Positions 4,901 through 19,131 of a stretch of 64,000 bases of DNA are shown piece by piece. The notes under the pieces were generated by a model. That model worked only from the letters and a program-made list of their open reading frames with translations. It was not told where the DNA came from and searched no databases. Made by a program: the position numbers and the translations under genes. Each line of letters starts with the position of its first letter. The first letter of the stretch is position 1. Location of the stretch: NCBI RefSeq assembly GCF_031458325.1, contig NZ_JAVDYG010000001.1:744001-808000 (forward strand), given 5' to 3'. The stretch is from Nocardioides marmoribigeumensis (lineage in GTDB: Bacteria > Actinomycetota > Actinomycetes > Propionibacteriales > Nocardioidaceae).

Positions 4901-5544
4901 TCGGGCTGCTGGCTGCCATCGGGGTGCTCGTGCACGTGGCGACCGGACGACCGACGGACGGGAGCTCGCCCCCGCCGATCCCGGCCGAGACGTCCCGTCA
5001 GATCTGGGCCACGTTCGCCCACGCGTTGTGGCACGAGTGGGAGGGCCGTCCGGAGGAGTGCCTCGCCCAGGCCAGGGAGGTGGTGGCGCTGCACCTGGAC
5101 TGGATCGGTGTCGAGGACGACTTCGTGCACTTCTTCGCGCACCTCGCCCGCCTGGCCTGGAGCGTCGGTGACGACGAGACCCTCGGCTGGCTCGTGCAGC
5201 CGGTCGACGGGGCAGGGGATGCCGTCCCGCTCGGCCTGCGCGCCCATCGGCGGCACGTCGCCGGCCTCGTGGCGGACCGCGACGGAGAGATCGAGGCCGC
5301 GGAGGCGGCGTACGGCGAGGCGATCGAGCTGTTCGGTCGGTGGGGCGCCATACCCGCCGAGGCGCGGGCGCACGCCGACCTCGGGGTGCTGCTCACCAGG
5401 CTCGGCCGGGGCGAGGAGGCGGGCCCGCACCTGACACAGGCACGCGAGGTCTTCGACCGTCTGGGTGCAGCTGCCTGGGCCGCCGAGCTCGACGCCGCTC
5501 TCGGCTCCCCGGCAGCGTCTGACCCCGTCCCGGCGAGCCCCTGA
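1981..5544 (+). CDS. Zinc-ribbon class III adenylate cyclase - AAA ATPase - TPR protein
   Basis: A protein of about 1187 residues. Two CxxC...CxxC zinc ribbons occupy residues 3-45 (CAGCG..CPACG, CASCG..CMECG). A class III cyclase domain follows at about 60-230. Its metal-binding Asp residues (D76 in FADLVGF, D120 in IGDAVM), adenine-selecting Lys116 and Asp191, and transition-state Asn194 and Arg198 (VNTAAR) are all present, so it is predicted to make cAMP. A STAND-like AAA ATPase has a Walker A at about 294 (GEAGVGKTR) and a Walker B-like VVDDAQHAD. The C-terminal 500 residues are helical and TPR-like. No C-terminal LuxR helix-turn-helix is seen. The GTG at 1981 has GAGG 9 nt upstream; the in-frame GTG at 1972 abuts that motif and is less likely. 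The gene is monocistronic, 34 nt before parC. Confidence 0.85.
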
Positions 5545-5578
5545 CCGGACTGGGGGTGGGGCCGGAGAGAATGCCCCA

Positions 5579-8035
5579 ATGGCCCGCCGCAGCACACGCT
5601 CCGCTCCGCTCCCCGAGGACTTCGAGGAGCACATCGTCGACATCGACGTGGGCGACGAGATGCGGTCGAGCTTCCTGGAGTACGCCTACTCCGTCATCTA
5701 CTCCCGCGCCCTTCCCGACGCCCGCGACGGGCTCAAGCCGGTGCAGCGCCGGATCCTCTACACGATGAACGACATGGGTCTGCGGCCCGACCGCGGCCAC
5801 GTCAAGTCGGCCCGCGTGGTCGGCGAGGTGATGGGTCGCCTCCACCCCCACGGCGACGGCGCGATCTACGACGCCCTGGTGCGCATGGCGCAGCCGTGGT
5901 CGATGCGGCTGCCGATGATCGACGGCCACGGCAACTTCGGCAGCCCTGACGACTCCCCGGCGGCCATGCGCTACACCGAGTGCCGCATGGCGCCGCCCGC
6001 CTCGGCGATGACGGGGTCGATCGAGGAGAACACGGTCGACTTCAAGCCCAACTACGACAGCCGCGAGGAGGAGCCGACGGTCCTGCCGTCGGCGATCCCC
6101 AACCTGCTGGTCAACGGCGCGTCCGGCATCGCCGTCGGCATGGCCACCAACATGGCGCCGCACAACCTGGTCGAGGTGGTGCAGGCACTCCGCCACCTGA
6201 TCACCCACCCGGCCGCCGACCTCGACGCGCTGATGCGGTTCGTGCCCGGGCCCGACCTGCCGACCGGCGGCAAGATCATCGGGCTGGACGGCATCCGCGA
6301 CGCCTACGAGACCGGCCGCGGCTCGTTCAAGATGCAGGCCACCACCCGCATCGAGAGCGTCACCCCGCGCCGCAAGGGCATCGTCGTGACCGAGCTGCCC
6401 TACGGCGTCGGCCCGGAGCGCGTGATCGAGAAGATCAAGCAGCTCGCCCAGTCCAAGAAGCTCCAGGGCGTCGCCGACATCAAGGACCTCACCGACCGCG
6501 AGCACGGCCTGCGCCTGGTGATCGAGGTCAAGAACGGCTTCAACCCCGAGGCGATCCTGGCCCAGCTGCTCAAGCAGACCCCGATGGAGGACTCCTTCGG
6601 GATCAACAACGTCGCGCTCGTCGACGGCCAGCCCCGCACCCTGGGGCTCAAGGCGCTGCTCGAGGTCTTCCTCGACCACCGCTTCACCGTCGTACGCCGG
6701 CGCTCGCAGTTCCGGCGCGACAAGGCCGCCGACCGGCTGCACCTCGTCGAGGGGCTGCTCGTCGCGATCCTCGACATCGACGAGGTCATCCAGCTGATCC
6801 GCGGCAGCGACAACTCCGGGGAGGCCAAGGAGCGCCTCATGACGGTCTTCGACCTGACCGACCCCCAGGCGACCTACATCCTCGACATGCAGCTGCGCCG
6901 GCTGACCAAGTTCTCCCGCATCGAGCTGGAGAACGAGAAGTCCGAGCTGCTGCAGACCATCGAGGCGCTCGACCAGATCCTCGGCGACGACGCCCAGCTG
7001 CGCCGGGTGGTCTCCGACGAGCTGGCCGAGGTGGCCAAGGCCTACGGCACCCCGCGTCGCACCGTCCTGCTCGCCTCCGCCGGCCAGACCGCGGTGAGCG
7101 CGGTGCCGCTCGAGGTCGCCGACGACCCGTGCTTCGTCCACCTCTCCTCCGCCGGTCTGCTCGCCCGCACCAGCGACGCCGAGCCGCCGGGCCCCGTCGG
7201 GGACCGCGCCACCCATGACGTCGTCGTCTCCACGGTGCGCACGACCGCCAGGGGCCAGGTCGGCGCGCTGACGACGACCGGCCGGCTGCTGCGCCTCGAC
7301 GTGCTCGACCTGCCGACCATCCCCCCGACCGCGGGGTCGCCGCACCTGCAGGGCGGCCAGCCGGTCGAGTCGTTCCTCGTGCTCGAGGGCGCCGAGCGGG
7401 TGGTCGGGCTGTGCGCGCTGCGCGAGGACGGCCCCGGCCTGGCGCTGGGCACCGCCCAGGGCGTGGTGAAGCGGGTCAACCCCGAGGTGCTCAACCGCGA
7501 CGCCTGGGAGGTCGTGCGCCTCGCCGACGGCGACGAGGTGGTGGGCATCGTCGAGCTGGCCGACGGCGAGGAGGAGCTGGTGTTCGTCTCCAGCGACGCC
7601 CAGCTGCTGCACTTCCCGGCCTCGGCGGTGCGCCCGCAGGGTCGCTCCGGGGGCGGCATGGCCGGCATCCGCCTCGCCGCGGGCGCCAGGGTGGTCTTCT
7701 TCGGCGCGATCCGCATCGAGGACGCCGTCGTGGTGACGATCTCCGGGTCCTCCAGCGCGCTCCCCGGCACCGAGGTCGGCGCGGTCAAGGTGACGCCCTT
7801 CTCGGAGTACCCCCCCAAGGGCCGCGCCACCGGCGGCGTCCGCTGCCACCGGTTCCTCAAGGGCGAGGACGCGCTGCTGCTCGCCTGGGCCGGCGCCCAG
7901 CCGATGGCCGCCGCCGCCTCCGGCCAGCCGGTGGACCTGCCCGCCCCCGACGGCCGCCGCGACGGCTCGGGCGTGCCCGGCAGCCAGCCGGTCGCCGCGG
8001 TCGCCTCCCCGCCCTGTGTCAGGGTGACGGCATGA
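5579..8035 (+). CDS. parC: DNA topoisomerase IV subunit A
   Basis: An 818-residue GyrA/ParC-type subunit that with ParE forms topoisomerase IV, the decatenase of replicated chromosomes. The breakage-reunion domain is intact ([39 protein letters not shown]) with catalytic Tyr132 in AMRYTECR. The C-terminal beta-pinwheel is present. A canonical GyrA box is not: the closest segment reads [10 protein letters not shown], which favours ParC over GyrA. The partner parE lies at 16835-18952 on the other strand. The ATG at 5579 is preceded by GAGAAT with a 6-nt spacer, suggesting a leaderless start; a purine-rich GGAGAG overlaps this. The stop codon overlaps the next start (ATGA), so the lipoprotein gene is translationally coupled. 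Confidence 0.93.
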
Positions 8036-8856
8036 CCTCTCCCCGGTCCCGCGCCGCCCGGCCGAGCGGACGCTCGGCCGCCCGGCCGAGCGGACGCTCG
8101 GCCGCCCGGCCGAGCGGACGCTCGGCCGCCCGCTCACCCGGACGCTCGGCCGCCCGCTCACCCGGACGCCGCGCCGGCGTGCTGCTCGCCGTCGTCGTCC
8201 TGGCCACCGGGCTGGCCGCGTGCGGCGGGGGCAAGGACGGCGGCGGGGGCGACGACCCGACCAAGGTGCTGGCTGCCGCCAAGCAGCAGCTCGACGACAC
8301 CCCCGGGGTGCGGCTCTCCCTGCGCACCAAGGCGTTGCCCGAGGGGGTGGACGGCATCCTCGACGCCACCGGCGTGGGCACCCACGCGCCGGCGTTCAAG
8401 GGCGAGATCAAGGTGCTGTTCAACGGCCTCAGCGCGACCGTGCCGATCGTCGCCGTGGGCGGCAAGGTCTACGCCAAGCTGCCCTTCAGCGGCAACGGGT
8501 TCGATCCGATCAACCCCGACGACTACGGCGCCCCCGACCCGGCGGGCCTGCTCGACCCCGACACGGGGGTCGCCACCTGGCTCACGGCGGCCACCGGCGT
8601 CGAGAAGGGCAAGCAGTCCCGCAACGGCAAGCAGGTCCTCACCGACTACACCGGCACGGTGCCCGGTGAGGCCGTCGCCGCGGTCATCCCCAGCGCCAAC
8701 AAGGCGGCCGGGTTCCCCGCGACGTTCTCCCTCGACGGCGACGGGCGCCTGGTGAGCGCCGACATCACCGGGCCGTTCTACACCGGCAAGGAGCCGGTCG
8801 CCTACACGCTCGGCCTCAGCGACTACGGCACCGACCAGGAGATCACCGCGCCGTGA
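8032..8856 (+). CDS. LprG/LppX-family lipoprotein with repeat-extended N terminus
   Basis: A 274-residue lipoprotein of the LppX/LprAFG family, known in mycobacteria as carriers with a lipid-binding cavity. The n-region before the signal helix is unusually long (about 47 residues) and made of five Arg/Ser-rich 8-residue repeats (AARPSGRS and variants). A hydrophobic helix and a lipobox LAAC follow, with lipidated Cys64. The mature part shares the pattern GAPDPAxLLDP and a final DITGPFY...YTLxLSDYG with the lipoprotein at 10651, so the two are paralogues flanking one MFS transporter. The ATG overlaps the parC stop. It is also preceded by CAGGGT at 6 nt, so it may have its own leaderless promoter. 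The stop overlaps the MFS start (GTGA). Confidence 0.8.
8053..8172 (+). repeat. Five in-frame 24-bp tandem repeats in a signal-peptide n-region
   Basis: Three units (8053-8076, 8077-8100, 8101-8124) are identical at nucleotide level and encode AARPSGRS. The next two (8125-8148, 8149-8172) are diverged copies encoding AARSPGRS and AARSPGRR. The unit is a whole number of codons, so copy-number change would keep the reading frame. Confidence 0.95.
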
Positions 8857-10604
8857 CGTCGACCGGCGTCGACCGCACCCAGCGGGTCCTGCTCGGTCTC
8901 GCCGCCGTCGCGGTGATGTTCGCCGCCGCGGACACCTACGTCGTCGTGCTGGCCCTGCCGGACATGATGGCCTCGGCCGGGCTGTCGGCCGACGAGCTGC
9001 AGCGTGCGGCCCCGATCATCTCCGGCTTCCTGCTCGGCTACGTCGCCGTGCTCCCCCTCATCGGCCGCGTCGCCGACCTCCGCGGACGGGTGCCGGTGCT
9101 GGTGGGCTGCCTGGTCCTCTTCGCGGTCGGATCGCTGGTGACCGCCGTCGCCTACGACCTGCCCTCGATGGTGACCGGCCGCGTGCTTCAGGGGGTCGGC
9201 GGCGGCGGGCTGCTCCCGGCCACGCTGGCCCTGGTGGCCGACCTCTACCCGCCGCGCGAGCGGGGCGTGCCGCTCGGGATCGTCGGCGGCATCCAGGAGC
9301 TGGGCAACGTCCTCGGTCCCCTCTACGGCGCGCTGGTGCTCAGCGTCGGCTCGTGGCGCGGCATCTTCTGGCTCAACCTCGCGGTGGCGCTGGTGCTCGC
9401 CGCGGTGGTCCGCAGCCGCGGTCCGCGCACGAGCACCACCGGCACGCCCGACCCGGTCGGGGTCGGCCTCGCCCTGCTGGGCCTGGGCTGCCTCGTGCTC
9501 GTCATGGCCCCGCCCGACCGGCTGGCCACCGACGTGACGTGGGGGCTGGCCGTCGTACCCCTGGTCGGGGAGTCGCGCTGGCTCTCGCCGCTCGCGCTTG
9601 CCACCGTCGCGCTCGCGGTGCTCTTCGTCGCGCGGCTCCTCACCGCCCGCCGCCCGCTGGTCGACCTCGGCTCCTGGCGCGGCACCCTGCGCGAGGTCGA
9701 CGTCTGGGGCTCCCTCCTGCTCGCCGTCGCCCTCGGCGCAGTGATCCTCGCCTTCGCCACCTCCGACCCGCAGGTGCAGGTGTTCTCCCCCGCCGGCCCC
9801 TACCTGCTCCTCCTCGGCGCGGCCGCCGGCGCCGGCTTCTGGTGGCGCAACCGCCGTGCCGAGCACCCGCTGGTGCCGCGGGGAGCGATCGCACGCACCC
9901 CCGCGTGGGGGGCGATGGTGGTGAGCTTCTTCGTCGGCGCGGCCCTCATCGCCGCGCTCGTCGACATCCCGGTGTTCGCCCGGGTGACCGTCTACAACGA
10001 CTCCCAGCTCCTTGCCGCGCTCGTGCTGGTGCGCTTCCTCGTCGGGCTGCCGCTGGGGGCGCTCGCCGGCGGTCTGCTGACCCACCGCTTCCCCGCCGGG
10101 CCGGTGACGGCGGTGGGCATGGCCGCCTCCGCCTACGGCTTCTGGGCGATGTCGCGGTGGTCCTTCGACGCGTTGGAGGGCCCGTGGGCCACGGTGCCGC
10201 TGCTGCTCGCCGGCTTCGGCGTCGGGCTCGCGATGGCGCCGACCAACGCCTCGCTGCTGGCCACCACGACCGAGTCCTCCCACGGCGTGAGCAGCGCGCT
10301 GCTCGTCGTCTCCCGCAGCGTGGGCAAGCTGGTCGGCCTCAGCGTGCTCACCAGCGTCGGGCTGCGCGCCTACTACGCCGGCCAGACCGGCCTGCCCGCA
10401 CCCATGGACGTGTGCGGCGAGGGGGTCAGCCGGTGCACGGCCTACTCCCGCCTGCTCCAGGACGCCGGCCTGGTGCAGCTGCACACGATCTTCCTCGGCG
10501 CGATGGTGTGCTCCGTCGTCGCGGGACTCGTCGCGCTCGTGGTCTTCCGCGGTGCCGACACCCAGCACGTGCAGGCCGCGGCGTTCGAGGGTGCGACCGG
10601 GTGA
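8853..10604 (+). CDS. MFS efflux transporter, 14-TM DHA2 type, P55-like
   Basis: A 583-residue major facilitator with an N-terminal motif A region (GRVADLRGRVPVLVG) and a motif C-like segment (GIQELGNVLGPLYG). The hydrophobic profile fits 14 helices, as in DHA2 transporters. It sits between two LprG-like lipoprotein genes. In mycobacteria LprG (Rv1411c) and the 14-TM transporter P55 (Rv1410c) form an operon that moves triacylglycerol and related lipids outward and affects drug tolerance. By analogy this pair is predicted to export a lipid or amphiphile, but the substrate here is unknown. The GTG start overlaps the lipoprotein stop (GTGA), so translation is coupled. The second lipoprotein begins 46 nt downstream. 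Confidence 0.82.
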   Translation: MTSTGVDRTQRVLLGLAAVAVMFAAADTYVVVLALPDMMASAGLSADELQRAAPIISGFLLGYVAVLPLIGRVADLRGRVPVLVGCLVLFAVGSLVTAVAYDLPSMVTGRVLQGVGGGGLLPATLALVADLYPPRERGVPLGIVGGIQELGNVLGPLYGALVLSVGSWRGIFWLNLAVALVLAAVVRSRGPRTSTTGTPDPVGVGLALLGLGCLVLVMAPPDRLATDVTWGLAVVPLVGESRWLSPLALATVALAVLFVARLLTARRPLVDLGSWRGTLREVDVWGSLLLAVALGAVILAFATSDPQVQVFSPAGPYLLLLGAAAGAGFWWRNRRAEHPLVPRGAIARTPAWGAMVVSFFVGAALIAALVDIPVFARVTVYNDSQLLAALVLVRFLVGLPLGALAGGLLTHRFPAGPVTAVGMAASAYGFWAMSRWSFDALEGPWATVPLLLAGFGVGLAMAPTNASLLATTTESSHGVSSALLVVSRSVGKLVGLSVLTSVGLRAYYAGQTGLPAPMDVCGEGVSRCTAYSRLLQDAGLVQLHTIFLGAMVCSVVAGLVALVVFRGADTQHVQAAAFEGATG

Positions 10605-10650
10605 GGAGTCAGGGGCTGTCCCGTCTCCCGTCGCGTGACAGGGTGTGCGC

Positions 10651-11361
10651 ATGAACACCGGGGGAACCACGCGCCGCCGCCTGCTCGCCGCCACCACGCT
10701 CGTCCTTGTCGTCCCGCTCGCGCTGTCGGCCTGCACCGGCGGCTCCGACAAGGGCACCACCACCGGCCCCCAGGCCGGCGACGGCCCGCTCGCCGCGGCC
10801 CAGCAGAAGCTGCTCGACACCAGCGGTGTCGACCTCACGCTCACGGCGAGCAAGCTGCCCCGCGGCGTCGACGGCGTACGCCGTCTGAGCGGCACCCTGA
10901 CCGCCGCACCGGCCTTCAAGGGCAAGGTCGGCGTGCGGGTCAACGACCTGACCGCCACCCTGCCGATGGTCGCGGTCGACGGGGCCGTCTACGCCCAGCT
11001 GCCGTTCACCGACTCCTACGCCGAGATCGACCCGGCCGCCTACGGCGCCCCCGACCCGGCAGAGCTGCTCGACCCCGAGCACGGGCTCGCCGGCTGGCTG
11101 GGCGAGACCCAGGGGCCGCAGAAGAGCGACGACGGCAAGGTCGTCACCGGCACGATCCCCGGGCAGGTCGTGGCCGGCGCCGTCCCGTCCGCCGCGGCGG
11201 GCGGCACCTTCCAGGCCGAGTGGCACCTCGACGGCGACGGCCTGCTCGAGGACGCGACGATCACCGGCCCGTTCTACGGCAAGGCCAAGGACGTCACCTA
11301 CGCCCTCGACCTGGGCGAGTACGACCTCTCCCCCGACATCACGGACCCCACCCAGAAGTGA
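10651..11361 (+). CDS. LprG/LppX-family lipoprotein (second copy)
   Basis: A 236-residue lipoprotein with a short RRR n-region, a hydrophobic stretch and lipobox LSAC (Cys28). It is paralogous to the protein at 8032-8856: both carry LPRGVDG/LPEGVDG, APAFKG, YGAPDPA.LLDP and a terminal TGPFYxGK motif. It lacks the repeat-extended N terminus. A soluble lipid-carrier role beside the P55-like transporter is inferred from the mycobacterial LprG family. The ATG at 10651 is chosen because CAGGGT lies exactly 6 nt upstream, identical to the element before the first copy. An in-frame GTG two codons earlier is less likely. The stop overlaps the next gene (GTGA). Confidence 0.8.
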   Translation: MNTGGTTRRRLLAATTLVLVVPLALSACTGGSDKGTTTGPQAGDGPLAAAQQKLLDTSGVDLTLTASKLPRGVDGVRRLSGTLTAAPAFKGKVGVRVNDLTATLPMVAVDGAVYAQLPFTDSYAEIDPAAYGAPDPAELLDPEHGLAGWLGETQGPQKSDDGKVVTGTIPGQVVAGAVPSAAAGGTFQAEWHLDGDGLLEDATITGPFYGKAKDVTYALDLGEYDLSPDITDPTQK

Positions 11362-12275
11362 CCGAGCCCCAGCCGCGCTGCAGCACCGCCTCCGTCGCCG
11401 TCGGCGAGCCCACCGAGGGCACCGCACCGCACGCCGTCGGGTGGCTGGTCCTCGAGCAGCCCGGCCCCTGGGGCGCCAAGGCCTTCACCGCCAGCCGCCT
11501 CGACCCGGCCCTCGGCGCCCGCATCGAGGCGGCGTGCGCGACGACCACCCGGCCGGTCCGCCCTGTCCTGGTCCGCCGGCCCGACGGCACCTCCGGGGAC
11601 TCGCGGACGCTCCTGCTCGCGCACACCACGCCCGGGACCGGCTGGCTGCTCGGGGCGCAGGTCGACGCCGCCGCGCTGGGCGACCTGCCGTGGGAGGCGC
11701 TGGCCGTCGCGGTCGCCACCGGCGACGCCGACCTCGTGCGCCGGGAGGTCCCCGGCTGCGTGCCGGTCCCGCCGCTGCTCCTCGTGTGCACCAACGGCAA
11801 GCGCGATCGCTGCTGCGCGATCGAGGGCCGCCCGGTCGCCCTCCACGTCGCCGCGGCCCACCCCGGCCGGGTCTGGGAGACCACGCACCTCGGGGGGCAC
11901 CGGTTCGCCCCGACCGCGGCCGTGCTCCCCTCCGGGTCGGTCCACGGCCGGTTGTCCACGGCCACCGCCGCCGCCCTGCTCCATGCCGCAGACCACGGGA
12001 AGGTCCTCCTCGACGGGACCCGTGGCCGCAGCACCTGGGCGCCTCCTGCCCAGGCCGCGGAGGCCGCCGTACGCCGGGAGGTGGGTGAGCACGACGCCGA
12101 CGCCCTCCACGTGGAGGGCGAGCGAGAGGTGGTCATGGTCCGGCACCGCGACGGCCGGGCGTGGACGGTGGAGGTGACCCGCGAGGAGCGGGCCGACGAG
12201 CGGCCGGAGTCGTGCGGCAAGGCCGCCCTGCCCGTGGCGGCGTGGGTCGCCGGGGTGCCTCAGCCCGCGAGGTGA
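11358..12275 (+). CDS. Sucrase/ferredoxin-like (thioredoxin-fold) protein
   Basis: A 305-residue member of the sucrase/ferredoxin-like family, named from distant plant sucrase and [2Fe-2S] thioredoxin-like ferredoxin similarity. The family signature LVCTNGKRDRCCAIEGRP is present, followed by THLGGHRFAPTAAVLPSG. A further Cys at residue 8 and clustered Cys/His residues are compatible with iron-sulfur binding. The biochemical role of bacterial members is unproven. The GTG overlaps the stop of the second lipoprotein, so this is the last gene of the parC-lipoprotein-MFS-lipoprotein run. Its 3' end overlaps the convergent esterase gene by 16 nt. Confidence 0.75.
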   Translation: MTEPQPRCSTASVAVGEPTEGTAPHAVGWLVLEQPGPWGAKAFTASRLDPALGARIEAACATTTRPVRPVLVRRPDGTSGDSRTLLLAHTTPGTGWLLGAQVDAAALGDLPWEALAVAVATGDADLVRREVPGCVPVPPLLLVCTNGKRDRCCAIEGRPVALHVAAAHPGRVWETTHLGGHRFAPTAAVLPSGSVHGRLSTATAAALLHAADHGKVLLDGTRGRSTWAPPAQAAEAAVRREVGEHDADALHVEGEREVVMVRHRDGRAWTVEVTREERADERPESCGKAALPVAAWVAGVPQPAR

Positions 12276-13123
12276 CGCAGGGTGAAGTCGAGCAGGCCGG
12301 GCACGTAGGTCCGCCAGTAGCGCGCCTCGTGGGCCCCCGGGCCGCCGTGGAGCTCCACGTCCACCCCGGCCCTGCGCAGCCCCTCGACCAGGTCGTCGTC
12401 GACCGGCCGGTAGGGGTCGCCCGCACCGACGTTGACCTGCACCGGCACGCCGACCAGCCGCTCGGGGTGGCCGAGCACGTCGTCGGCCGAGGTCGGCTCG
12501 TCGCGGTGCACCGCCGGGCTCAGCGTGGCCACGGAGGTCGCGGGCACCAGGTCGAGACCGGCGAGCCGCAGCACGCCGTAGCCGCCCATGGACCAGCCGG
12601 CCAGCGCAGGTCGCTCCACGTCGAGCCCGCGCCGCGCCAGCAGCGGCAGCAGCTCGTCGGCGACCATGCGGCCGGCGTCGGCGCCGGAGGGCTCGGGCCG
12701 CCAGTAGCCCGTGCCGCCGTCGACGGTGGCGATCGCGAAGGGCCGGGCCCCGCCGGCGACGGCCGCCGAGGCGTAGCGGTCGAGGCCCAGGTCGGTGAAC
12801 GCCGTCGTGTGGTCGCCGCCCCGGCCGTGCAGGACGACGAGCACGGGCAGCGCGGCGTCGGTGGGCGTCCCGTGCGGGTAGGCCACCGTCCATCCCGTCG
12901 CCGTGCCACGGCGGGCCGCGGAGTCGAAGCTCCCGCTGACCAGCTCGCCGCGGGGGCCCTCGGGGAACGGCGTCCCCTCGCCGTTGCCGATCAGCTCGTG
13001 CAACCGGGCCCGGCCCGGGAGGCGGTCCTCCTCGACCAGCTCGCCGAGCACGAGCCCCGCCGCGGCCAGCCCGACCACTCCCCCGCCGGCGCGGAGGAGG
13101 GCGCGGCGCGACAGCCCGCTCAC
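12260..13123 (-). CDS. Tat-exported alpha/beta-hydrolase (esterase), copy 2
   Basis: A 287-residue protein with a twin-arginine signal (SRRALLRAGGG...) and an esterase-type alpha/beta-hydrolase fold. It has the HGRGGDHTTAF oxyanion region, nucleophile elbow GWSMGGYG and a late His in GPGAHEARYW. The family resembles esterase D and antigen-85-like hydrolases. The substrate is unknown; an outer-envelope ester is plausible because the protein is exported. It is clearly paralogous to the upstream gene at 13120-14025, with which it shares about half of its positions by eye. Its GTG start overlaps that gene's stop (GTGA). Confidence 0.8.
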   Translation of the reverse strand: MSGLSRRALLRAGGGVVGLAAAGLVLGELVEEDRLPGRARLHELIGNGEGTPFPEGPRGELVSGSFDSAARRGTATGWTVAYPHGTPTDAALPVLVVLHGRGGDHTTAFTDLGLDRYASAAVAGGARPFAIATVDGGTGYWRPEPSGADAGRMVADELLPLLARRGLDVERPALAGWSMGGYGVLRLAGLDLVPATSVATLSPAVHRDEPTSADDVLGHPERLVGVPVQVNVGAGDPYRPVDDDLVEGLRRAGVDVELHGGPGAHEARYWRTYVPGLLDFTLRHLAG

Positions 13124-14025
13124 GCGGTGAGGTGCCTCGCGGTGAAGCGCAGCAGGCCGGGCACGAAGGTGCGCCAGAACCGCTGCGTGTGGCCCCCGGG
13201 CCCGGTGTGCACCTCGGGACGGACCCCCTGGGCCCGCAGCGCGGCGACGTACTGCCGGTCGACCCGCCAGAACAGGTCGCCCCGTCCCACGCTGACCTGC
13301 ACCGGCATCCCGCGCAGCCGCTGGGGGTTGCGCAGCACGTCGTCGGCGTCCTCCGCGTAGTGCAGCGCCGGGGCGAAGGTCGCGACCGACCGCACCGGCA
13401 GCAGGCCGAGCCCCGCGATCCGCAGCGAGCCGTAGCCGCCCATCGACCAGCCGCCGAGCGACATCGTCGCGGTGTCGAGACCGTGCTCGGCGAGGAGCGG
13501 GACGAACTCGTCGACCACCATGCGGCTGGCGTCGCTGCCGTCGGGGGCCGGCTTCCAGTAGTCGCGGCCGCCGTCGACCGACGCGATCGCGAACGGCGGC
13601 AGGTCGTGGCGCACGGCCTGGGTGAGGAAGCGGTCCATGCCGAGGCCCTCGAAGGCCGCGGTGTGGTCGCTGGCGTGGCCGTGCAGCATCACCAGCACGG
13701 GGAGCGGCGTGCCGCGCTCGATGCCGTGGGGCCAGCAGATCGTCCAGCCGGTCTGCGCGCCGAGACGGGCCGGGGACGCGAACGACCCGGAGACCAGGGT
13801 GCCGCGGGGCACGTCGGGGATGGGCAGCGTGCCACCGTTGCGGCCGAGCACGGCGCGGAGCACGTCGCCGCCGGGCAGGAGCCCGCCCTCCACGGCCAGC
13901 CCCGCGCCCAGCGCGCCGGCACCGGCGACCCCGGCGCCGGCCAGGAAGGTACGCCGGGTGGTGCGCACGGCGAGCGGTGCCGGGTCCACCGGCGCGTGCG
14001 CGTGTGACGATCCCCCCATGGTCAT
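13120..14025 (-). CDS. Tat-exported alpha/beta-hydrolase (esterase), copy 1
   Basis: About 301 residues, with a twin-arginine motif (TTRRTFLAGAG) and an Ala/Gly-rich h-region. The hydrolase core has HGHASDHTAAF, nucleophile GWSMGGYGSLR and GPGGHTQRFW with the catalytic His. It is the first gene of a two-gene operon of tandem paralogues. The ATG at 14025 is favoured because TATCCT lies exactly 6 nt upstream with no Shine-Dalgarno, which fits a leaderless transcript; the in-frame ATG at 14019 is an alternative. It is divergent from the carbonic anhydrase gene, with only 39 nt between the two starts. Confidence 0.8.
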   Translation of the reverse strand: MTMGGSSHAHAPVDPAPLAVRTTRRTFLAGAGVAGAGALGAGLAVEGGLLPGGDVLRAVLGRNGGTLPIPDVPRGTLVSGSFASPARLGAQTGWTICWPHGIERGTPLPVLVMLHGHASDHTAAFEGLGMDRFLTQAVRHDLPPFAIASVDGGRDYWKPAPDGSDASRMVVDEFVPLLAEHGLDTATMSLGGWSMGGYGSLRIAGLGLLPVRSVATFAPALHYAEDADDVLRNPQRLRGMPVQVSVGRGDLFWRVDRQYVAALRAQGVRPEVHTGPGGHTQRFWRTFVPGLLRFTARHLTA

Positions 14026-14031
14026 GGGCGC

Positions 14032-14057
14032 AGGATAGGTCCCCGGCTGGATAACCT
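14032..14057. promoter_or_regulatory. Back-to-back leaderless promoters (esterase operon / carbonic anhydrase)
   Basis: On the minus strand TATCCT (14037-14032) ends 6 nt before the ATG at 14025. On the plus strand TAACCT (14052-14057) ends 7 nt before the ATG at 14065. Both -10-like elements fit in a 39-nt divergent gap, so no room is left for leaders with ribosome-binding sites. Confidence 0.6.
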
Positions 14058-14064
14058 CATGAGC

Positions 14065-14568
14065 ATGACCGAGTCTGCTTCCTTCGACGACCTGCTCGCC
14101 GCCAACCGCACCTTCGCCGAGACCTTCGACCTGCAGGGCTTCGACGGCGTCGCCCACGCCGGCGTCGCCATCGTGACCTGCATGGACTCCCGCATCGACC
14201 CGCTGCGCATGCTCGGGCTGAAGGCGGGCGACGCCAAGATCCTGCGCAACCCGGGAGGCCGCGTCACCGACGCCGCTCTCGAGGCGCTGGTGCTGGCCAC
14301 GCACCTGCTCAACGTCGACCGGATCCTGGTGGTGCCCCACACCCGCTGCGCGGTGGCCTCCAACGACGAGGACGAGCTGCGTCGCCGCGTCGAGGAGTCC
14401 GCTGGGGTGGACGCCACCTGGCAGAGCTTCCACGTCATCCAGGACCAGCTCGCGACCCTCGCCCAGGACGTCCACCGGGTCACCTCGCACCCGCTGGTCC
14501 GCGACTCGGTGAAGGTCGGCGGGTTCCTCTACGACGTCGACTCGGGCCTGCTCACCCAGCACGTCTGA
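14065..14568 (+). CDS. Beta-class carbonic anhydrase
   Basis: A 167-residue beta-carbonic anhydrase that interconverts CO2 and bicarbonate. Zinc ligands Cys39 (CMDSR), His92 and Cys95 (PHTRC) and the Asp41-Arg43 dyad are present. The small size matches the Rv1284/CanA-like subfamily. An ATG at 14059 is also in frame, but TAACCT lies 7 nt before the ATG at 14065 and only 1 nt before the first, so the downstream ATG is chosen on leaderless spacing. It is probably cytoplasmic because no signal peptide is seen. The WxL-like locus begins 148 nt downstream. Confidence 0.88.
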   Translation: MTESASFDDLLAANRTFAETFDLQGFDGVAHAGVAIVTCMDSRIDPLRMLGLKAGDAKILRNPGGRVTDAALEALVLATHLLNVDRILVVPHTRCAVASNDEDELRRRVEESAGVDATWQSFHVIQDQLATLAQDVHRVTSHPLVRDSVKVGGFLYDVDSGLLTQHV

Positions 14569-14591
14569 ACCTCGCCGGGCCGAAGTTGGTC

Positions 14592-14609
14592 AGTTGGCCT
14601 AGACCGGTG
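14592..14609. promoter_or_regulatory. DasR-like operator (candidate)
   Basis: AGTTGGCCTAGACCGGTG contains TGGCCTAGACCG, which matches the GntR/HutC-type dre consensus TGGTCTAGACCA at 10 of 12 positions, including the central CTAGACC. It lies 108 nt before the first WxL-like gene. The left and right arms are imperfect. A DasR-type regulator binding here is inference. Confidence 0.35.
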
Positions 14610-14716
14610 ACCACATTTCCGCCGGTTCCTGTCCGCTTCAGGCCTTAGGTCCTGTCTCCTTTCGGGTAGTCGGAGCGAGTTGGGAGTGCTCGCCCCGCCG
14701 ACCCTGGGAGACCACC

Positions 14717-15259
14717 ATGACGATCCGTCGTACCCGTCGTACCCGTCGAGCCGCCCTCGCGGCCGCCGCCACCGGTCTCGTCGGCCTCGCGACGGTCGGG
14801 GTCCACGCCCCGGCCGAGGCCGCCGACACCACGACCACCTTCACCATCACCGCCGCCGGCGGCCTGTCGATCAGCGCGCCGACGAGCGTCAGCCTCGGCT
14901 CGGTGACCTCCGGCACCACGTCGGTCAGCGGGAGCCTCGGCGCGGTCACCGTGACCGACCAGCGGGGGCTCATCCTCGGCAACTGGACCGCCACGGCGTC
15001 CAGCACGAGCTTCGCGCACAGCACCGACTCGACCTACGACATCGGCAGCGCCCAGGCGGTCTACGCCACGGGGTCGGTGTCGGGCGACGGGGGCGCCGCG
15101 GTCGGCGCGGGCGGCTCGCTGGCCGCCCCGGTGGTCGCCGCGACACGCCTGGGCGCGGGCAACAACACCGTGACCTGGAACCCGACGGTCACCGTGACGC
15201 TCCCGACCACCGCGGTCGTCGGCACCTACACCGCCACAATCACCCACTCGGTGAGCTGA
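14717..15259 (+). CDS. WxL-like secreted cell-surface protein A
   Basis: A 180-residue protein with an Arg-rich signal peptide (RRTRRTRRAALAAAA... cleaved near AEAAD) and a Thr/Ser/Ala-rich beta-type mature domain. It carries two spaced Trp motifs: GSLGAVTVTD...LILGNWTATAS, and about 85 residues later TVTWNPTVTVTLP ending GTYTATITHSV. This layout resembles WxL cell-wall-binding domains, though the classical W-x-L triplet is relaxed. It is homologous to the protein at 16316-16819, and a DUF916-like protein lies between them, the same partnership as in Gram-positive WxL loci. GGGAG lies 6 nt before the ATG. Non-covalent binding to peptidoglycan is inferred. Confidence 0.7.
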   Translation: MTIRRTRRTRRAALAAAATGLVGLATVGVHAPAEAADTTTTFTITAAGGLSISAPTSVSLGSVTSGTTSVSGSLGAVTVTDQRGLILGNWTATASSTSFAHSTDSTYDIGSAQAVYATGSVSGDGGAAVGAGGSLAAPVVAATRLGAGNNTVTWNPTVTVTLPTTAVVGTYTATITHSVS

Positions 15260-15278
15260 GGCGCCCTACCGTGGGGGC

Positions 15279-16319
15279 GTGACCGCACGTCGTCTGCTCG
15301 CCCTGGGCGCGCTGGTGCTCGCGCTCGCGCCGACGCTGGGGCCCACCGCCGCGCACGCGGCGGCGGACGGCTCGATCGAGATCCAGCTGCTCGAGGCCCC
15401 CGAGTCGCGGCGCGACGACCCGCGCGCCCTGGCCTACATCGTCGACCACCTCCACCCCGGGGACACGATCGAGCGCGACTTCGCGGTCACCAACCACACC
15501 GACCGGCGGCAGCGCGTCCGGCTCTACGCCGGGCCGGCCGAGATCCGCGACGGCCAGTTCATCGGCGACGAGGCCGGCACGAGCAACGAGCTCACCTCCT
15601 GGGTCTCGGTCAGCCGGTCCCGGGTGCGGCTCGCCCCCGGCGAGACCACCGAGCAGACCGTGCGCGTCGAGGTGCCGCCCGACGCCGCGCGGGGCGAGCG
15701 CTACGCCGTGCTGTGGGCGGCGGTGCGCTCCCACGGAGGCGGAGACGTGCGCCTGGTCAACCGGGTCGGCATCCGCCTCTACCTCGACGTGGGTCGAGGC
15801 GGCGAGCCCCCGTCGGACTTCTCGGTCGACGAGATCGTCCCCGGCCGCAACGCCTCGGGCCAGCCCACCCTGACCGCGCAGGTGACCAACACCGGTGAGC
15901 GCGCCATCGACGTCCGGGGCGAGGTGCGGCTGCGCCGCGGGCCGGGCGGGCTCAGTGCCGGGCCCTTCGAGGTGGCCAGCGGGGCGACCCTCGCACCCGG
16001 CGACCGGGGCAGCGTCGCCATCGCGCTCGACAAGTCGCTGCCGGCCGGACCGTGGCGGGCGAAGTTCCTGCTCCGCAGCGGTCGCGTCGTGCACCGCGCC
16101 GCCGCGACGGTCACGTTCCCCACCTCCGGCACCGGCGCCGCGGTGACGCCCCGTGACGCCGACCCGACCGACGCGGCGTCCGGCACGGGCAGCCCGTGGA
16201 CCGACCCCTGGGTGATCGGCACGGTCACGGTCGGGCTGGGCCTGCTCCTGGCGCTGCTCCTGCTGCGCCGGCGCAGGCGGGTCGCCGCCGCTCCCCCGGC
16301 CCCGGGCGGGGGCCCGTGA
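15279..16319 (+). CDS. DUF916/WxLIP-like membrane-anchored peptidoglycan-binding protein
   Basis: A 346-residue protein with a cleavable signal peptide (ending near AHAAADGS). An immunoglobulin-like DUF916-type domain follows (residues about 40-170; LHPGDTIERDFAVTNHTDRRQRVRLYA, LAPGETTEQTVRVEVP), then a second beta-sandwich at about 180-290 (DFSVDEIVPG...LTAQVTNTGERAIDV). A TM helix near 312-332 ends in a basic RRRRR tail. This matches the WxL-interacting protein (WxLIP) layout known in Firmicutes, where DUF916 binds peptidoglycan and WxL proteins. The GTG has TACCGT 6 nt upstream. Its stop overlaps the next gene (GTGA). Confidence 0.75.
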   Translation: MTARRLLALGALVLALAPTLGPTAAHAAADGSIEIQLLEAPESRRDDPRALAYIVDHLHPGDTIERDFAVTNHTDRRQRVRLYAGPAEIRDGQFIGDEAGTSNELTSWVSVSRSRVRLAPGETTEQTVRVEVPPDAARGERYAVLWAAVRSHGGGDVRLVNRVGIRLYLDVGRGGEPPSDFSVDEIVPGRNASGQPTLTAQVTNTGERAIDVRGEVRLRRGPGGLSAGPFEVASGATLAPGDRGSVAIALDKSLPAGPWRAKFLLRSGRVVHRAAATVTFPTSGTGAAVTPRDADPTDAASGTGSPWTDPWVIGTVTVGLGLLLALLLLRRRRRVAAAPPAPGGGP

Positions 16320-16819
16320 CCCGGCTGCTCCCCGTGGCCGTCCTCGGGGCCGTGGCCGTCCTCACCACCGCGACCCCGGCCGACGCCCTGTCGATCACGG
16401 CTCCGGGCCCGACCGACCTCGGCACCACCCAGAGCGGCGGCACGCTCACCGCCCAGCTCGGTCCGGTCACCGTCAGCTCCAACGTCGCGCTCGCCACCGG
16501 GTGGGTCGCGACGGTCTCCCTCTCGGGGGCGTTCACCGTCATCCAGGCCGGCCGGACGGCGACCTTCCCCGCCTCACGGGTGCAGTACTGGTCCGGGAGC
16601 GCCACCGCGCTCACCGGCCTCACCGTCGGGCTGTGCACGCCGGGCCAGGCCACGTCCCTGCTCGCGCAGACCCTGACGAGCCCGCGCACGGCGTACACCT
16701 GTCCGGCGATCGTCGCGCTGAGCTCCTCGCTGACCTGGCGGCCGACGCTGGTGGTCACCACGCAGGGCAGCGACCCGGTCGGGACCTACAGCGGGACGAT
16801 CACCCACTCCGTGGCCTGA
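16316..16819 (+). CDS. WxL-like secreted cell-surface protein B
   Basis: A 167-residue exported protein with a signal peptide ending near ADA-LSIT. It repeats the architecture of protein A: AQLGPVTVSSNVALATGWVA in the N-terminal half and SLTWRPTLVVT...GTYSGTITHSV at the C terminus. One Cys pair (GLCTPGQ and YTCPA) may form a disulfide, which protein A lacks. Its GTG start is embedded in the stop of the DUF916-like gene, so the two are translationally coupled. A surface role together with the DUF916-like protein is inferred; no enzyme motif is seen. Convergent with parE, 15 nt apart. Confidence 0.7.
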   Translation: MTRLLPVAVLGAVAVLTTATPADALSITAPGPTDLGTTQSGGTLTAQLGPVTVSSNVALATGWVATVSLSGAFTVIQAGRTATFPASRVQYWSGSATALTGLTVGLCTPGQATSLLAQTLTSPRTAYTCPAIVALSSSLTWRPTLVVTTQGSDPVGTYSGTITHSVA

Positions 16820-16834
16820 GGCCTCCCGAGCGGC

Positions 16835-18952
16835 TCAGGCGTCGATCAGGTCGGCGTCGATCTCGTAGGCACCCTGGACCAGGAACTCCCGCCGCGGCGC
16901 GACCTCGGAGCCCATCAGCAGCTCGAAGACCTCGGCCGCGACCGCCGCGTCGTCGGCGGTGATCCGCCGCAACGTGCGGTGACGCGGGTCCATGGTGGTC
17001 TCGGCCAGCTGGTCGGCGTCCATCTCGCCGAGGCCCTTGTAGCGCTGCACCGGGTCCTTCCAGCGCAGGCCCTTCTTGGTCAGCTCGGCCAGCTTGCGCT
17101 GCAGGTCGACGTCGGAATAGGTGTAGACGTACTTCTCCATCCCCTTCTTGGGGTTGGTCAGCTCGATGCGGTGCAGCGGCGGCACGGCGGTGAAGACCCG
17201 GCCCGCCGAGATCAGCTCGGGCATGTACTTGAAGAACAGCGTCGCCAGCAGGCACCGGATGTGGGCGCCGTCGGAGTCGGCGTCGGCCATGAAGATGACC
17301 CGGCCGTAGCGCGCGGCCTCGAGGTCGAAGTTGCGCCCCGACCCCGCCCCGACCACCTGGATGATCGAGGCGCACTCGGTGTTCTTGAGCATGTCGCCCA
17401 TCGAGGCCTTCTGGACGTTGAGGATCTTGCCGCGGATCGGCAGGAGCGCCTGGTACTCCGAGTCGCGCGCGAGCTTGGCGGTGCCGAGCGCGGAGTCGCC
17501 CTCGACGATGAACAGCTCGGTGCGCTCGTTGTCGCCGGAGCGGCAGTCGGCCAGCTTGGCCGGCAGCGCCGAGGACTCCAGGGCGTTCTTGCGGCGCTGG
17601 TTGTCGCGCTGGGTGCGCGCGGCGATGCGGGTGCGCGAGGCGTTGGCGACCTTGTCCAGCAGCGGCTTGACCTGGACCTTGTCGGCGCGCTTGCTCGAGG
17701 TCAGGAACGCCTTGAGCTCGGCGGCGACCACCTTGCGCACGATCGAGCGCGCGGCCGGGGTGCCGAGCACCTCCTTGGTCTGGCCCTCGAACTGCGGCTC
17801 GGCCAGCCGGACCGTGACGACCGCGGTCAGCCCCTCCATCACGTCGTCCTTGACCACGTCGGGCTCGGCGACCTTGAGCGTCTTGGACTCGCGCAGCGCC
17901 TCGTTGAGCGTCTTGGTGAGCGCGGCCTCGAAGCCACCGACGTGGGTGCCGCCCTTGGGCGTGGCGATCACGTTGACGTAGGAGCGGACCTCGGCGTCAT
18001 AGCCGTTGGTCCAGCGCAGCGCCACGTCGACGCCCAGCTCGCGCTCGACGTCCTGGGGCGTCATGTGGCCCTGGTCGTCGAGCAGCGGCACGGTCTCGAC
18101 GAACCGGTCGCTGCCGGTCAGCCGCAGCACCTCGGTGACCGGCTCGCCGGCGGAGAGGAACTCGCAGTACTCCGTGATGCCGCCGTCGTGCTTGAACGCC
18201 TCCTCGACCGGCTCGGCGCCGCGCAGGTCGCGCAGCACGATCTCGAGGCCGGGGACGATGAACGTGGTCTGGCGGGCCCGGGTGACCAGGTCCTCCATCA
18301 CGAAGGTCGCGTCCCGGGTGAAGATCTGCGTGTCGGGCCAGAACCGCACCCGCGTGCCGGTGACCGTCTTGGCCACGCGCCTGCCCTTGACCAGCCCGGA
18401 GGCCGGGGTGAAGGCCGCCTTGGGGCCCTCGCCGTCGAACGTGCCCGGGACGCCGCGGTGGAAGCTGATGTGCTGGGTGGCCGGCGAGCGGTCCACCTCG
18501 GCGTCGAGCCGCACCGACAGGGCGTTGACCACCGAGGCGCCCACGCCGTGCAGGCCGCCGGTGGCGACGTAGGACCCGCCGCCGAACTTGCCGCCGGCGT
18601 GGAGCTTGGTGAAGACCACCTCGAGGCCGGACAGGCCCGTCTTGGGCTCCTTGTCGACCGGGATGCCACGGCCGTTGTCGGTGACCTCGGCGGAGCCGTC
18701 GGGGTGCAGCGTCACCACGATGCGGTCGCAGAAGCCACCCAGGGCCTCGTCGACGGCGTTGTCGATGATCTCCCACAGGCAGTGCATGAGCCCGCGCGTG
18801 TCGGTGGACCCGATGTACATGCCGGGCCGCTTGCGCACGGCCTCCAGTCCCTCGAGGACCAGCAGGTGGTGGGCGTTGTAGGTGTTGTCGATGACCGCCT
18901 CCGGAGTTTTGCCCAATCTATCGAGCGAGCCCGGGCGTGAACGGAACGCCAC
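16835..18952 (-). CDS. parE: DNA topoisomerase IV subunit B
   Basis: About 705 residues, depending on the start. The GHKL ATPase is intact (EIIDNAVDEALGG, DNGRGIPV, GGLHGVGASVVNALS). The transducer domain and TOPRIM follow (LFIVEGDSALGTAK, PIRGKILNV, MADADSDGAHIR). It pairs with ParC (5579-8035). The start is uncertain. Homology begins near NAHHLLVLEGLEAVRKRPGM, but there is no ATG before the first in-frame Met at PGMYIGS. Candidates are GTG 18952 with GAGG 10 nt upstream, TTG 18916, or a non-standard codon directly after a good GGAGG at 18897-18901 (see findings). The plus-strand neighbour diverges at 19238. Confidence 0.9.
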   Translation of the reverse strand: MAFRSRPGSLDRLGKTPEAVIDNTYNAHHLLVLEGLEAVRKRPGMYIGSTDTRGLMHCLWEIIDNAVDEALGGFCDRIVVTLHPDGSAEVTDNGRGIPVDKEPKTGLSGLEVVFTKLHAGGKFGGGSYVATGGLHGVGASVVNALSVRLDAEVDRSPATQHISFHRGVPGTFDGEGPKAAFTPASGLVKGRRVAKTVTGTRVRFWPDTQIFTRDATFVMEDLVTRARQTTFIVPGLEIVLRDLRGAEPVEEAFKHDGGITEYCEFLSAGEPVTEVLRLTGSDRFVETVPLLDDQGHMTPQDVERELGVDVALRWTNGYDAEVRSYVNVIATPKGGTHVGGFEAALTKTLNEALRESKTLKVAEPDVVKDDVMEGLTAVVTVRLAEPQFEGQTKEVLGTPAARSIVRKVVAAELKAFLTSSKRADKVQVKPLLDKVANASRTRIAARTQRDNQRRKNALESSALPAKLADCRSGDNERTELFIVEGDSALGTAKLARDSEYQALLPIRGKILNVQKASMGDMLKNTECASIIQVVGAGSGRNFDLEAARYGRVIFMADADSDGAHIRCLLATLFFKYMPELISAGRVFTAVPPLHRIELTNPKKGMEKYVYTYSDVDLQRKLAELTKKGLRWKDPVQRYKGLGEMDADQLAETTMDPRHRTLRRITADDAAVAAEVFELLMGSEVAPRREFLVQGAYEIDADLIDA

Positions 18953-19131
18953 GGGGGTACAACCTCGGCACAGGAAGTGAAATTCCACAGGCCGAACGGA
19001 TTTCCGTCGTCAGCTGGGGTGGGACCTGCACACTGGGTCCCAGCACGGGACGGCAGTCCGCGTGGCTGGGAGACGCGAACCAGGGGTGGGACGGATCACA
19101 GGTCCGGTCCACCCGTCGGCCCGGGAGACCG

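Follow-up and report, generated by a model that had tools for sequence, protein, structure and literature searches.

The closest described systems to the locus considered here are the WxL/WxLIP (csc) gene clusters of the Bacillota, such as locus A of Enterococcus faecium, in which one DUF916-type protein with a membrane helix is encoded beside two secreted WxL-type proteins. In the literature, more than 91% of WxL proteins belong to the Firmicutes (PMC9772566) and they are linked to gut hosts and virulence (PMC9772566; PMC10599100). The arrangement met most often in the published cluster survey is a single WxLIP gene accompanied by two WxL genes (98/179; PMC10599100). The locus is a trio of genes in a 64,000-nucleotide stretch of the Nocardioides marmoribigeumensis genome (the window; positions 744,001 to 808,000 of contig NZ_JAVDYG010000001.1), which encodes two small exported proteins, P1 and P3, and between them a protein with a predicted membrane anchor, M. 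With a probability of roughly 0.72 we read it as a WxL/WxLIP-type unit in which M is tethered and holds P1 and P3. The original prediction, made from the letters of the window, had regarded the three-gene set as a 'minimal' form of the system; given the published arrangement, such a set is not unusual.

P1 (14717..15259, 180 amino acids, ending THSVS), M (15279..16319, 346 amino acids) and P3 (16316..16819, 167 amino acids) were confirmed by an open reading frame check as three open frames in this order on the forward strand, which also carries all the features of the trio given below. Nineteen bases separate P1 from M, the stop codon of M is overlapped by the GTG start of P3, and signal-peptide-like leaders were judged by eye to be present on all three; the trio is likely to be an operon-like unit of the WxL/WxLIP type. 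The probable signal peptide of P1 (14717..14821), with cleavage after APAEA, was placed by eye and by comparison with the leaders of its relatives. No sigma-70-like promoter or intrinsic terminator was found within 14500-16950.

M, with its signal peptide, two Ig-like domains and C-terminal transmembrane helix followed by an RRRRR tail, is probably a member of the WxLIP (DUF916) superfamily through intermediates, to judge from profile comparisons. A search with its single sequence finds proteins of four related actinobacterial loci (L004, E 6.3e-8; L005, 1.9e-7; L006, 3.7e-7; L008, 5.5e-5), all of which exceed the cut-off of the Pfam model WxLIP_PGBD (PF06030), and this model is matched at E <= 1 by 30 of 42 aligned M rows, the window's row being one of the 42. 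The 42-row profile, which includes distant actinobacterial rows and no row from the Bacillota (alignment A7), reaches the solved E. faecium protein EfmWxLIP1 at E 6.6e-7, and a 45-row profile with plasmid relatives added reaches it at E 1.3e-7. The link must run via intermediates, because only these wider profiles, and not the close relatives of M, arrive at the solved WxLIP. In the 45-row profile alignment the stretch prarayivdhvkPG falls on DKAIGYFDLLVAPE of the Enterococcus WxLIP, which fits the conserved WxLIP stretch published as NQIDKxxxYFDLK (PMC10599100).

The AlphaFold2 (AF2) model of M (predicted local distance difference test, pLDDT, 90.3; predicted template modelling score, pTM, 0.77) contains two Ig-like domains and a helix, and its top three Foldseek matches are the WxLIP chains 9i1y_A, 9i25_C and 9i1y_B (E 3.1e-13 to 1.3e-12). 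Domain 1, in the position of the PGBD, extends over 15375..15791 (AF2 strands, residues 5-143, and the wider-profile HMMER alignment to 9i1y_A), and domain 2, Ig-like and in the position of the HBD, over 15819..16115 (AF2 strands, residues 153-251, and a Foldseek alignment of 265 columns to 9i1y_A). The C-terminal transmembrane helix expected of a WxLIP is predicted in M (AF2 helix 282-308) at 16206..16286 and is followed by an arginine-rich tail. At least three Lys or Arg residues directly follow the helix in 39 of the 42 M rows as scored by script; the window's row, which the script misparsed, reads RRRRR by eye. Such a tail fits a helix that sits in the membrane of the bacterium itself, and is at odds with a published proposal in which the WxLIP helix inserts into host membranes. 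The earlier description of the middle protein as DUF916-like, with a signal peptide and a membrane anchor, was supported, by way of intermediates and the predicted helix.

The two small proteins are homologous by sequence comparison: when P1 was searched against its 4.44-Mb genome, P3 was the sole other significant match (E 1.9e-4, 41% identity, residues 41-179) and the third match had an E value of 0.74. The family profile likewise finds P1 (E 1.6e-39) and P3 (E 3.1e-34) and no other place at E <= 1 in this genome. Their common C-terminal pattern, pointed out in the original prediction, was confirmed as TWNPT...GTYTATITHSV in P1 and TWRPT...GTYSGTITHSV in P3; it is above chance, because a profile built from the window and the related loci L002 and L003 alone recovers the small-protein family in 39 of 39 loci of named genomes. 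In P1 the probable signal peptide is followed by a strand-like segment, ADTTTTFTITAAGG (14822..14863), whose alternating hydrophobic residues recur in the first genes of related loci; in the AF2 model the mean pLDDT is 67 over residues 1-10 and the first assigned strand does not begin before residue 15. The domain of P3 begins straight after the leader, without such a strand.

Comparison with the WxL domain, based on a small-protein alignment of 65 rows (A6), shows both what is kept and what is altered. The proximal motif has an equivalent in P1 at 14957..14986 (D-x-R ... W, with Ala for Leu as the third residue, W-x-A), and its Trp, which is the first Trp shared by P1 and P3, is kept in 59 of the 65 rows and is Tyr in the other 6. 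Among those 59 the third residue is Ala in 47 and Leu in none, so the literal first WxL triplet is absent. An Asp and an Arg preceding this Trp are described as a feature of WxL domains (PMC9772566, section 3.5); Asp is found in 57 and Arg in 56 of the 65 rows, and the pair is present in P1 and absent from P3. The distal motif, given as YxxxxTWxL (PMC5817068), corresponds to the C-terminal strand YTATITHSVS of P1 (15227..15256), where the Tyr and Thr are kept but the Trp is replaced by His (58/65 rows). Of the two-Trp architecture seen in the original prediction, the first Trp is thus that of WxL motif 1, but the second shared Trp (TWxPT) sits upstream of the motif-2 place, which is held by His in this family; similarly, 'relaxed' triplets describes a retained first Trp but understates the change, both literal triplets being gone. 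As W-x is never followed by Leu in the 59 rows that keep the first Trp, and the second Trp is replaced in 58 of 65, P1 and P3 are not WxL proteins by the literal definition; on these alignments they are a WxL-related subfamily, which we term W-x-A/THSV. That relation is seen in the Pfam WxL model PF13731, matched at E <= 1 by 15 of the 65 rows and over the cut-off by at least one (L057, 29.2 against 25 bits), and in a protein of a Paenibacillus plasmid, WP_211750217.1, which carries the annotation 'WxL domain-containing', has a DUF916 gene as its neighbour and is found by the small-protein profile at E 2e-9 when iterated and at E 6.5e-8 from the 65 A6 rows only. The profile also matches six of the eight fetched loci that have a place above the PF13731 cut-off (L052-L057).

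Conservation of the pairing was examined in a scan of named genomes, giving 39 loci with M, and in a class sample of 394 Actinomycetia genomes with profile matches taken at E <= 0.001; few candidates were scored per genome in the class-sample scans, so that their counts can run low. The alignments A3 and A4 each omit eight found rows (near-identical, partial or distant), and in L027 and L050 the M gene is divided between two frames. Genera with M loci include Herbidospora, Streptosporangium, Micromonospora, Rhodococcus, Streptomyces, Kitasatospora, Frankia, Aeromicrobium, Nocardioides and Cryobacterium, and over their best segments the M proteins of the 39 named loci are 41-54% identical to that of the window. 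In all 39, the nearest small-protein place lies within 220 bases of M (in L043 as a partial match on the opposite strand). In the class sample the M profile matches 176 genomes, some of them only near E 1e-4, where the protein found may be an Ig-like one of another kind; 90 genomes match the small-protein profile, of which 89 also match M (Fisher value 3e-37, ignoring the relatedness of the genomes). A strong small-protein place (E <= 1e-20) lies within 3 kb of 47 of the 50 strong M places (E <= 1e-80); two of the remaining three (G502 and G506) have a weaker adjacent small-protein place, and for G596 none is listed. Conversely, 69 of 74 strong small-protein places are within 3 kb of a strong M and five are not. 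The co-occurrence that the original prediction had proposed to survey is thus borne out.

The trio is nevertheless patchy, as only the window's species has it among five species of its genus. M matches two of the five at E <= 0.001, but the second match (E 7e-4, over 84 C-terminal positions and with an internal stop) was not accepted as real, and the small-protein profile has no match in the other four species. That the branch occurs in many genera of actinobacteria, Herbidospora, Rhodococcus and Micromonospora among them, suggests a core function that is not host binding. We regard the trio as part of a real branch of the WxL/WxLIP kind that is widespread in actinobacteria and has altered motifs. 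The prediction of an actinobacterial version was upheld by the profile homology on both sides and the conserved pairing, although the label 'DUF916' already stands in the gene tables of actinobacterial plasmid records; DUF916 genes are also reported from the gene neighbourhoods of Ang-2 metal-binding proteins in Actinomycetota (PMC12537917), so that DUF916 in this phylum is not itself new.

Set against the Bacillota clusters, the trio shares the arrangement of one DUF916-type protein with a membrane helix beside two secreted WxL-type proteins, a homology that profiles and intermediates show for M and for the small proteins alike, and 9i1y/9i25 as the best fold match of M; it differs in having W-x-A and THSV, in a locus without a large WxL protein, in leaving the HBD model unmatched and in a host outside the Bacillota. 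Actinobacterial proteins that are labelled DUF916 or match the Pfam WxL model are akin by profile, and in some of them the WxL-like domain is part of an enzyme or a large surface protein; the small proteins of the window are bare domains, and its branch mostly fails the Pfam models.

Several results weigh against this assignment. M alone matches WxLIP_PGBD only at E 0.12, under the cut-off, and its sole match over a cut-off is the generic Ig-like model NPCBM_assoc. When the PDB was searched with a profile of 34 close M rows, WxLIP was missing from the matches up to E 10, and TLP-IPT was found instead (E 6.3e-5, 61 positions), and the HBD model (PF11797) is matched by 3 of the 42 rows, the window's protein not among them. 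P1 and P3 have no match to PF13731 at E <= 1 or to any Pfam, NCBIfam or PHROG family, and both literal WxL triplets are gone from their family. The small-protein profile misses L051, which has the strongest PF13731 place, as well as L059 and a larger WxL-like neighbour in L066, and no WxL chain was found for P1 in the PDB, either by sequence search or among the 50 Foldseek matches listed. Weak as the direct matches are, the outcomes that the original prediction had named as refuting it did not occur.

These points would also suit a pairing of generic secreted proteins, Ig-like on one side and beta-sandwich on the other, that resemble WxL/WxLIP at fold level only and have no functional tie to it; the direct Pfam matches of the window's proteins are weak or absent, and the PDB protein found by the close-branch M profile is another Ig-like protein. 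We consider this very improbable, since significant sequence matches connect M with accepted WxLIP_PGBD proteins and the small proteins are connected with an annotated WxL protein whose gene adjoins DUF916; the two sides, whose pairing is conserved, both lead to the same system. Less improbable, though still unlikely, is that the trio is part of a surface complex for carbohydrate utilisation or enzyme display, as proposed for csc clusters in lactobacilli, and not a module for adhesion. WxL-like domains are found C-terminally on proteins matching HtaA (L004), Big_3_5 (L005, and L006 under the cut-off) and Metallophos (L008, under the cut-off), a gene of L065 annotated as RICIN domain-containing ends in one, and loci on Cellulosimicrobium and Clavibacter plasmids adjoin glycoside hydrolase family 43 genes; in the window, however, P1 and P3 consist of the bare domain, and the genes on either side of the trio are unrelated. 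Apart from this question, the C-terminal domains of L004, L005, L008 and L065 are perhaps a general actinobacterial wall-attachment tag, and in six Rhodococcus/Rhodococcoides loci (L031, L036, L037, L040, L041 and L042) a long stretch rich in Thr and Pro, resembling a wall-spanning stalk, comes before the WxL-like domain of the downstream gene.

A different assembly is suggested by the folds, in which M would be the membrane-tethered counterpart of a PapD-like chaperone, P1 a polymerising subunit like pilins or TasA, and P3 the cap or tip. Among the 50 Foldseek matches listed for the M model, 23 carry titles of chaperone-usher chaperones or of complexes with such a chaperone, ranking after WxLIP (E 1.2e-7 to 3.7e-6), but RbmA, CEP192 and ciliary proteins match it likewise, so the Ig-like fold is a common one. 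For P1, the titles of 34 of the 50 listed matches name subunits or tip adhesins of chaperone-usher pili, and a TasA fibre stands at rank 8; these matches are weak, with a best E value of 4.2e-3 at a root-mean-square deviation of 11.7 and none at E <= 1e-3. The N-terminal segment of P1 could serve as a donor strand: in 38 first-gene rows, hydrophobic residues make up 55/82/84% at positions -9/-7/-5 against 26/16/16/8% at -10/-8/-6/-4, and most downstream genes are without it (37% of 19 rows hydrophobic at -7 and -5; 5/19 too short to score). In this scoring L002:2535 was placed upstream by hand, the script having called it downstream, and 8 of the 65 rows, on the opposite strand or with no M fragment, were omitted. 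Yet the segment is found in 30 of the 38 upstream rows by a strict pattern (36 by eye), occurs in four of the 19 downstream rows too (L002, L032, L034 and L038), and may be merely the first strand of the domain itself. The PDB searches gave no sequence match to chaperone-usher pili (PapD/FimC-like) or TasA, with which a shared mechanism would be hypothetical. Donor-strand assembly of P1 is possible on these models, and the full scheme seems distinctly unlikely. A slightly longer shot is its extension to WxL/WxLIP in general, with WxLIP as a tethered PapD-like chaperone, WxL proteins as incomplete pilin-like subunits joined by donor-strand exchange, and an actinobacterial branch making surface fibres that are under the control of cyclic di-GMP (c-di-GMP) in some lineages. 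In a literature search with most subscription papers outside its scope, the passages found on WxL with donor strand or chaperone-usher make no such link. If true, the pilin and chaperone likeness would give a mechanism to a poorly understood surface system.

For the preferred reading, a WxL/WxLIP-type unit, the starting points are observed here: the genes, their pairing across genomes, the homology by intermediates, and the predicted folds and tether. P1 and P3 would be secreted as single-domain beta-sandwich proteins of the WxL-related subfamily, and M would be secreted and retained in its own membrane by the C-terminal helix and positive tail, its two Ig-like domains reaching into the wall. 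Domain 1 of M may clasp P1 and P3 by giving a strand to their sandwich, keeping them at the peptidoglycan, which they probably bind; both the clasp and this binding are extrapolated from homologues. In a published model from Enterococcus, the beta-sandwich of WxL is completed by a hairpin of WxLIP (PMC10599100), and the N-terminal WxL strand is thought to be mobile (PMC9772566, section 3.5). The title of PDB entry 9i25 gives WxLIP bound to a long WxL, and the literature search turned up no paper describing this entry. By homology to these pairs, M should clasp P1 and P3. As neither small protein has an extra domain, our guess is that the complex would form either a bare platform at the wall or a layer for adhesion.

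A c-di-GMP-I or c-di-GMP-I-GGC riboswitch was found with Rfam directly 5' of the first gene in five of the 39 named loci, all of which were examined (L016, L030, L032, L034 and L046), the aptamers of L032 and L034 being identical, and also upstream in L002, a locus found from a family relative. In the window itself none was detected by Rfam (gathering score; E <= 5) or by a riboswitch model, R1, built from seven sites, and the leader region of P1 (14569..14716) contains no riboswitch or other Rfam family detected in this way. RF01051 gave no match in the window's genome, but as control genomes gave none either its absence is not established; R1, under stricter filters, had no match in genome G000. 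In the class sample R1 found 57 places in 41 of the 394 genomes. Among 30 riboswitch loci kept, the small-protein family lies downstream in two: L067 (genome G560), found by this search, which carries the aptamer and a whole small protein of the trio's family, and L084, cut at the contig end (E 2.8e-4). Targets went unseen in several of the 30 because the sequence stops soon after the switch; in other loci pilin-like frames lie downstream in some (by eye), and a glycoside hydrolase in L074. Only one of the 50 strong M places of the class sample (G560) has a switch on the same contig, and the riboswitch as a dedicated control of the trio operon was rejected, its targets being mostly other or unseen.

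GGDEF/EAL genes occur in the fetched flanks of L016, L032, L038 (on both sides) and L049, a count that is a lower bound because it was taken from flanking-gene clustering. Judged from these sequences, expression in a few relatives is probably controlled by c-di-GMP by way of the riboswitch, so that c-di-GMP should switch the operon there, and this points to attached or multicellular growth. The literature search returned nothing joining a c-di-GMP riboswitch and WxL; the riboswitch in these few relatives is new in this analysis, as are the fold likeness of M to pilus chaperones and the weak likeness of P1 to pilins. In the Cryobacterium locus L046 there is in addition an exported-looking frame of 1048 amino acids (5996-9139), convergent to the trio and with no Pfam match, and a second c-di-GMP-I-GGC riboswitch further upstream (10610-10686), on the same strand as that frame.

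Clustering of flanking genes gave no conserved fourth gene common across genera, except within Rhodococcus and groups of four loci. In the window the trio is flanked upstream by a carbonic anhydrase-like gene (14059-14568) and downstream by a convergent gene for a type II topoisomerase B subunit (16835-18988), identified from its sequence. The gene for the topoisomerase A subunit (5465-8035) is on the strand opposite to that of the B subunit and about 9 kb away, with the trio between them. Two LppX_LprAFG lipoprotein genes (8047-8856 and 10645-11361) bracket a major facilitator superfamily transporter gene (8853-10604), as identified by Pfam matches, and this arrangement (8047-11361) resembles a doubling of what we take to be the mycobacterial lprG-p55 lipid-export pair. 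A selenocysteine tRNA called by ARAGORN at 8448-8529 sits inside a lipoprotein frame and is probably false. On the reverse strand, two tandem esterase-like paralogues occupy 12260-14042, the first matching PF00756 and the second recognised by eye.

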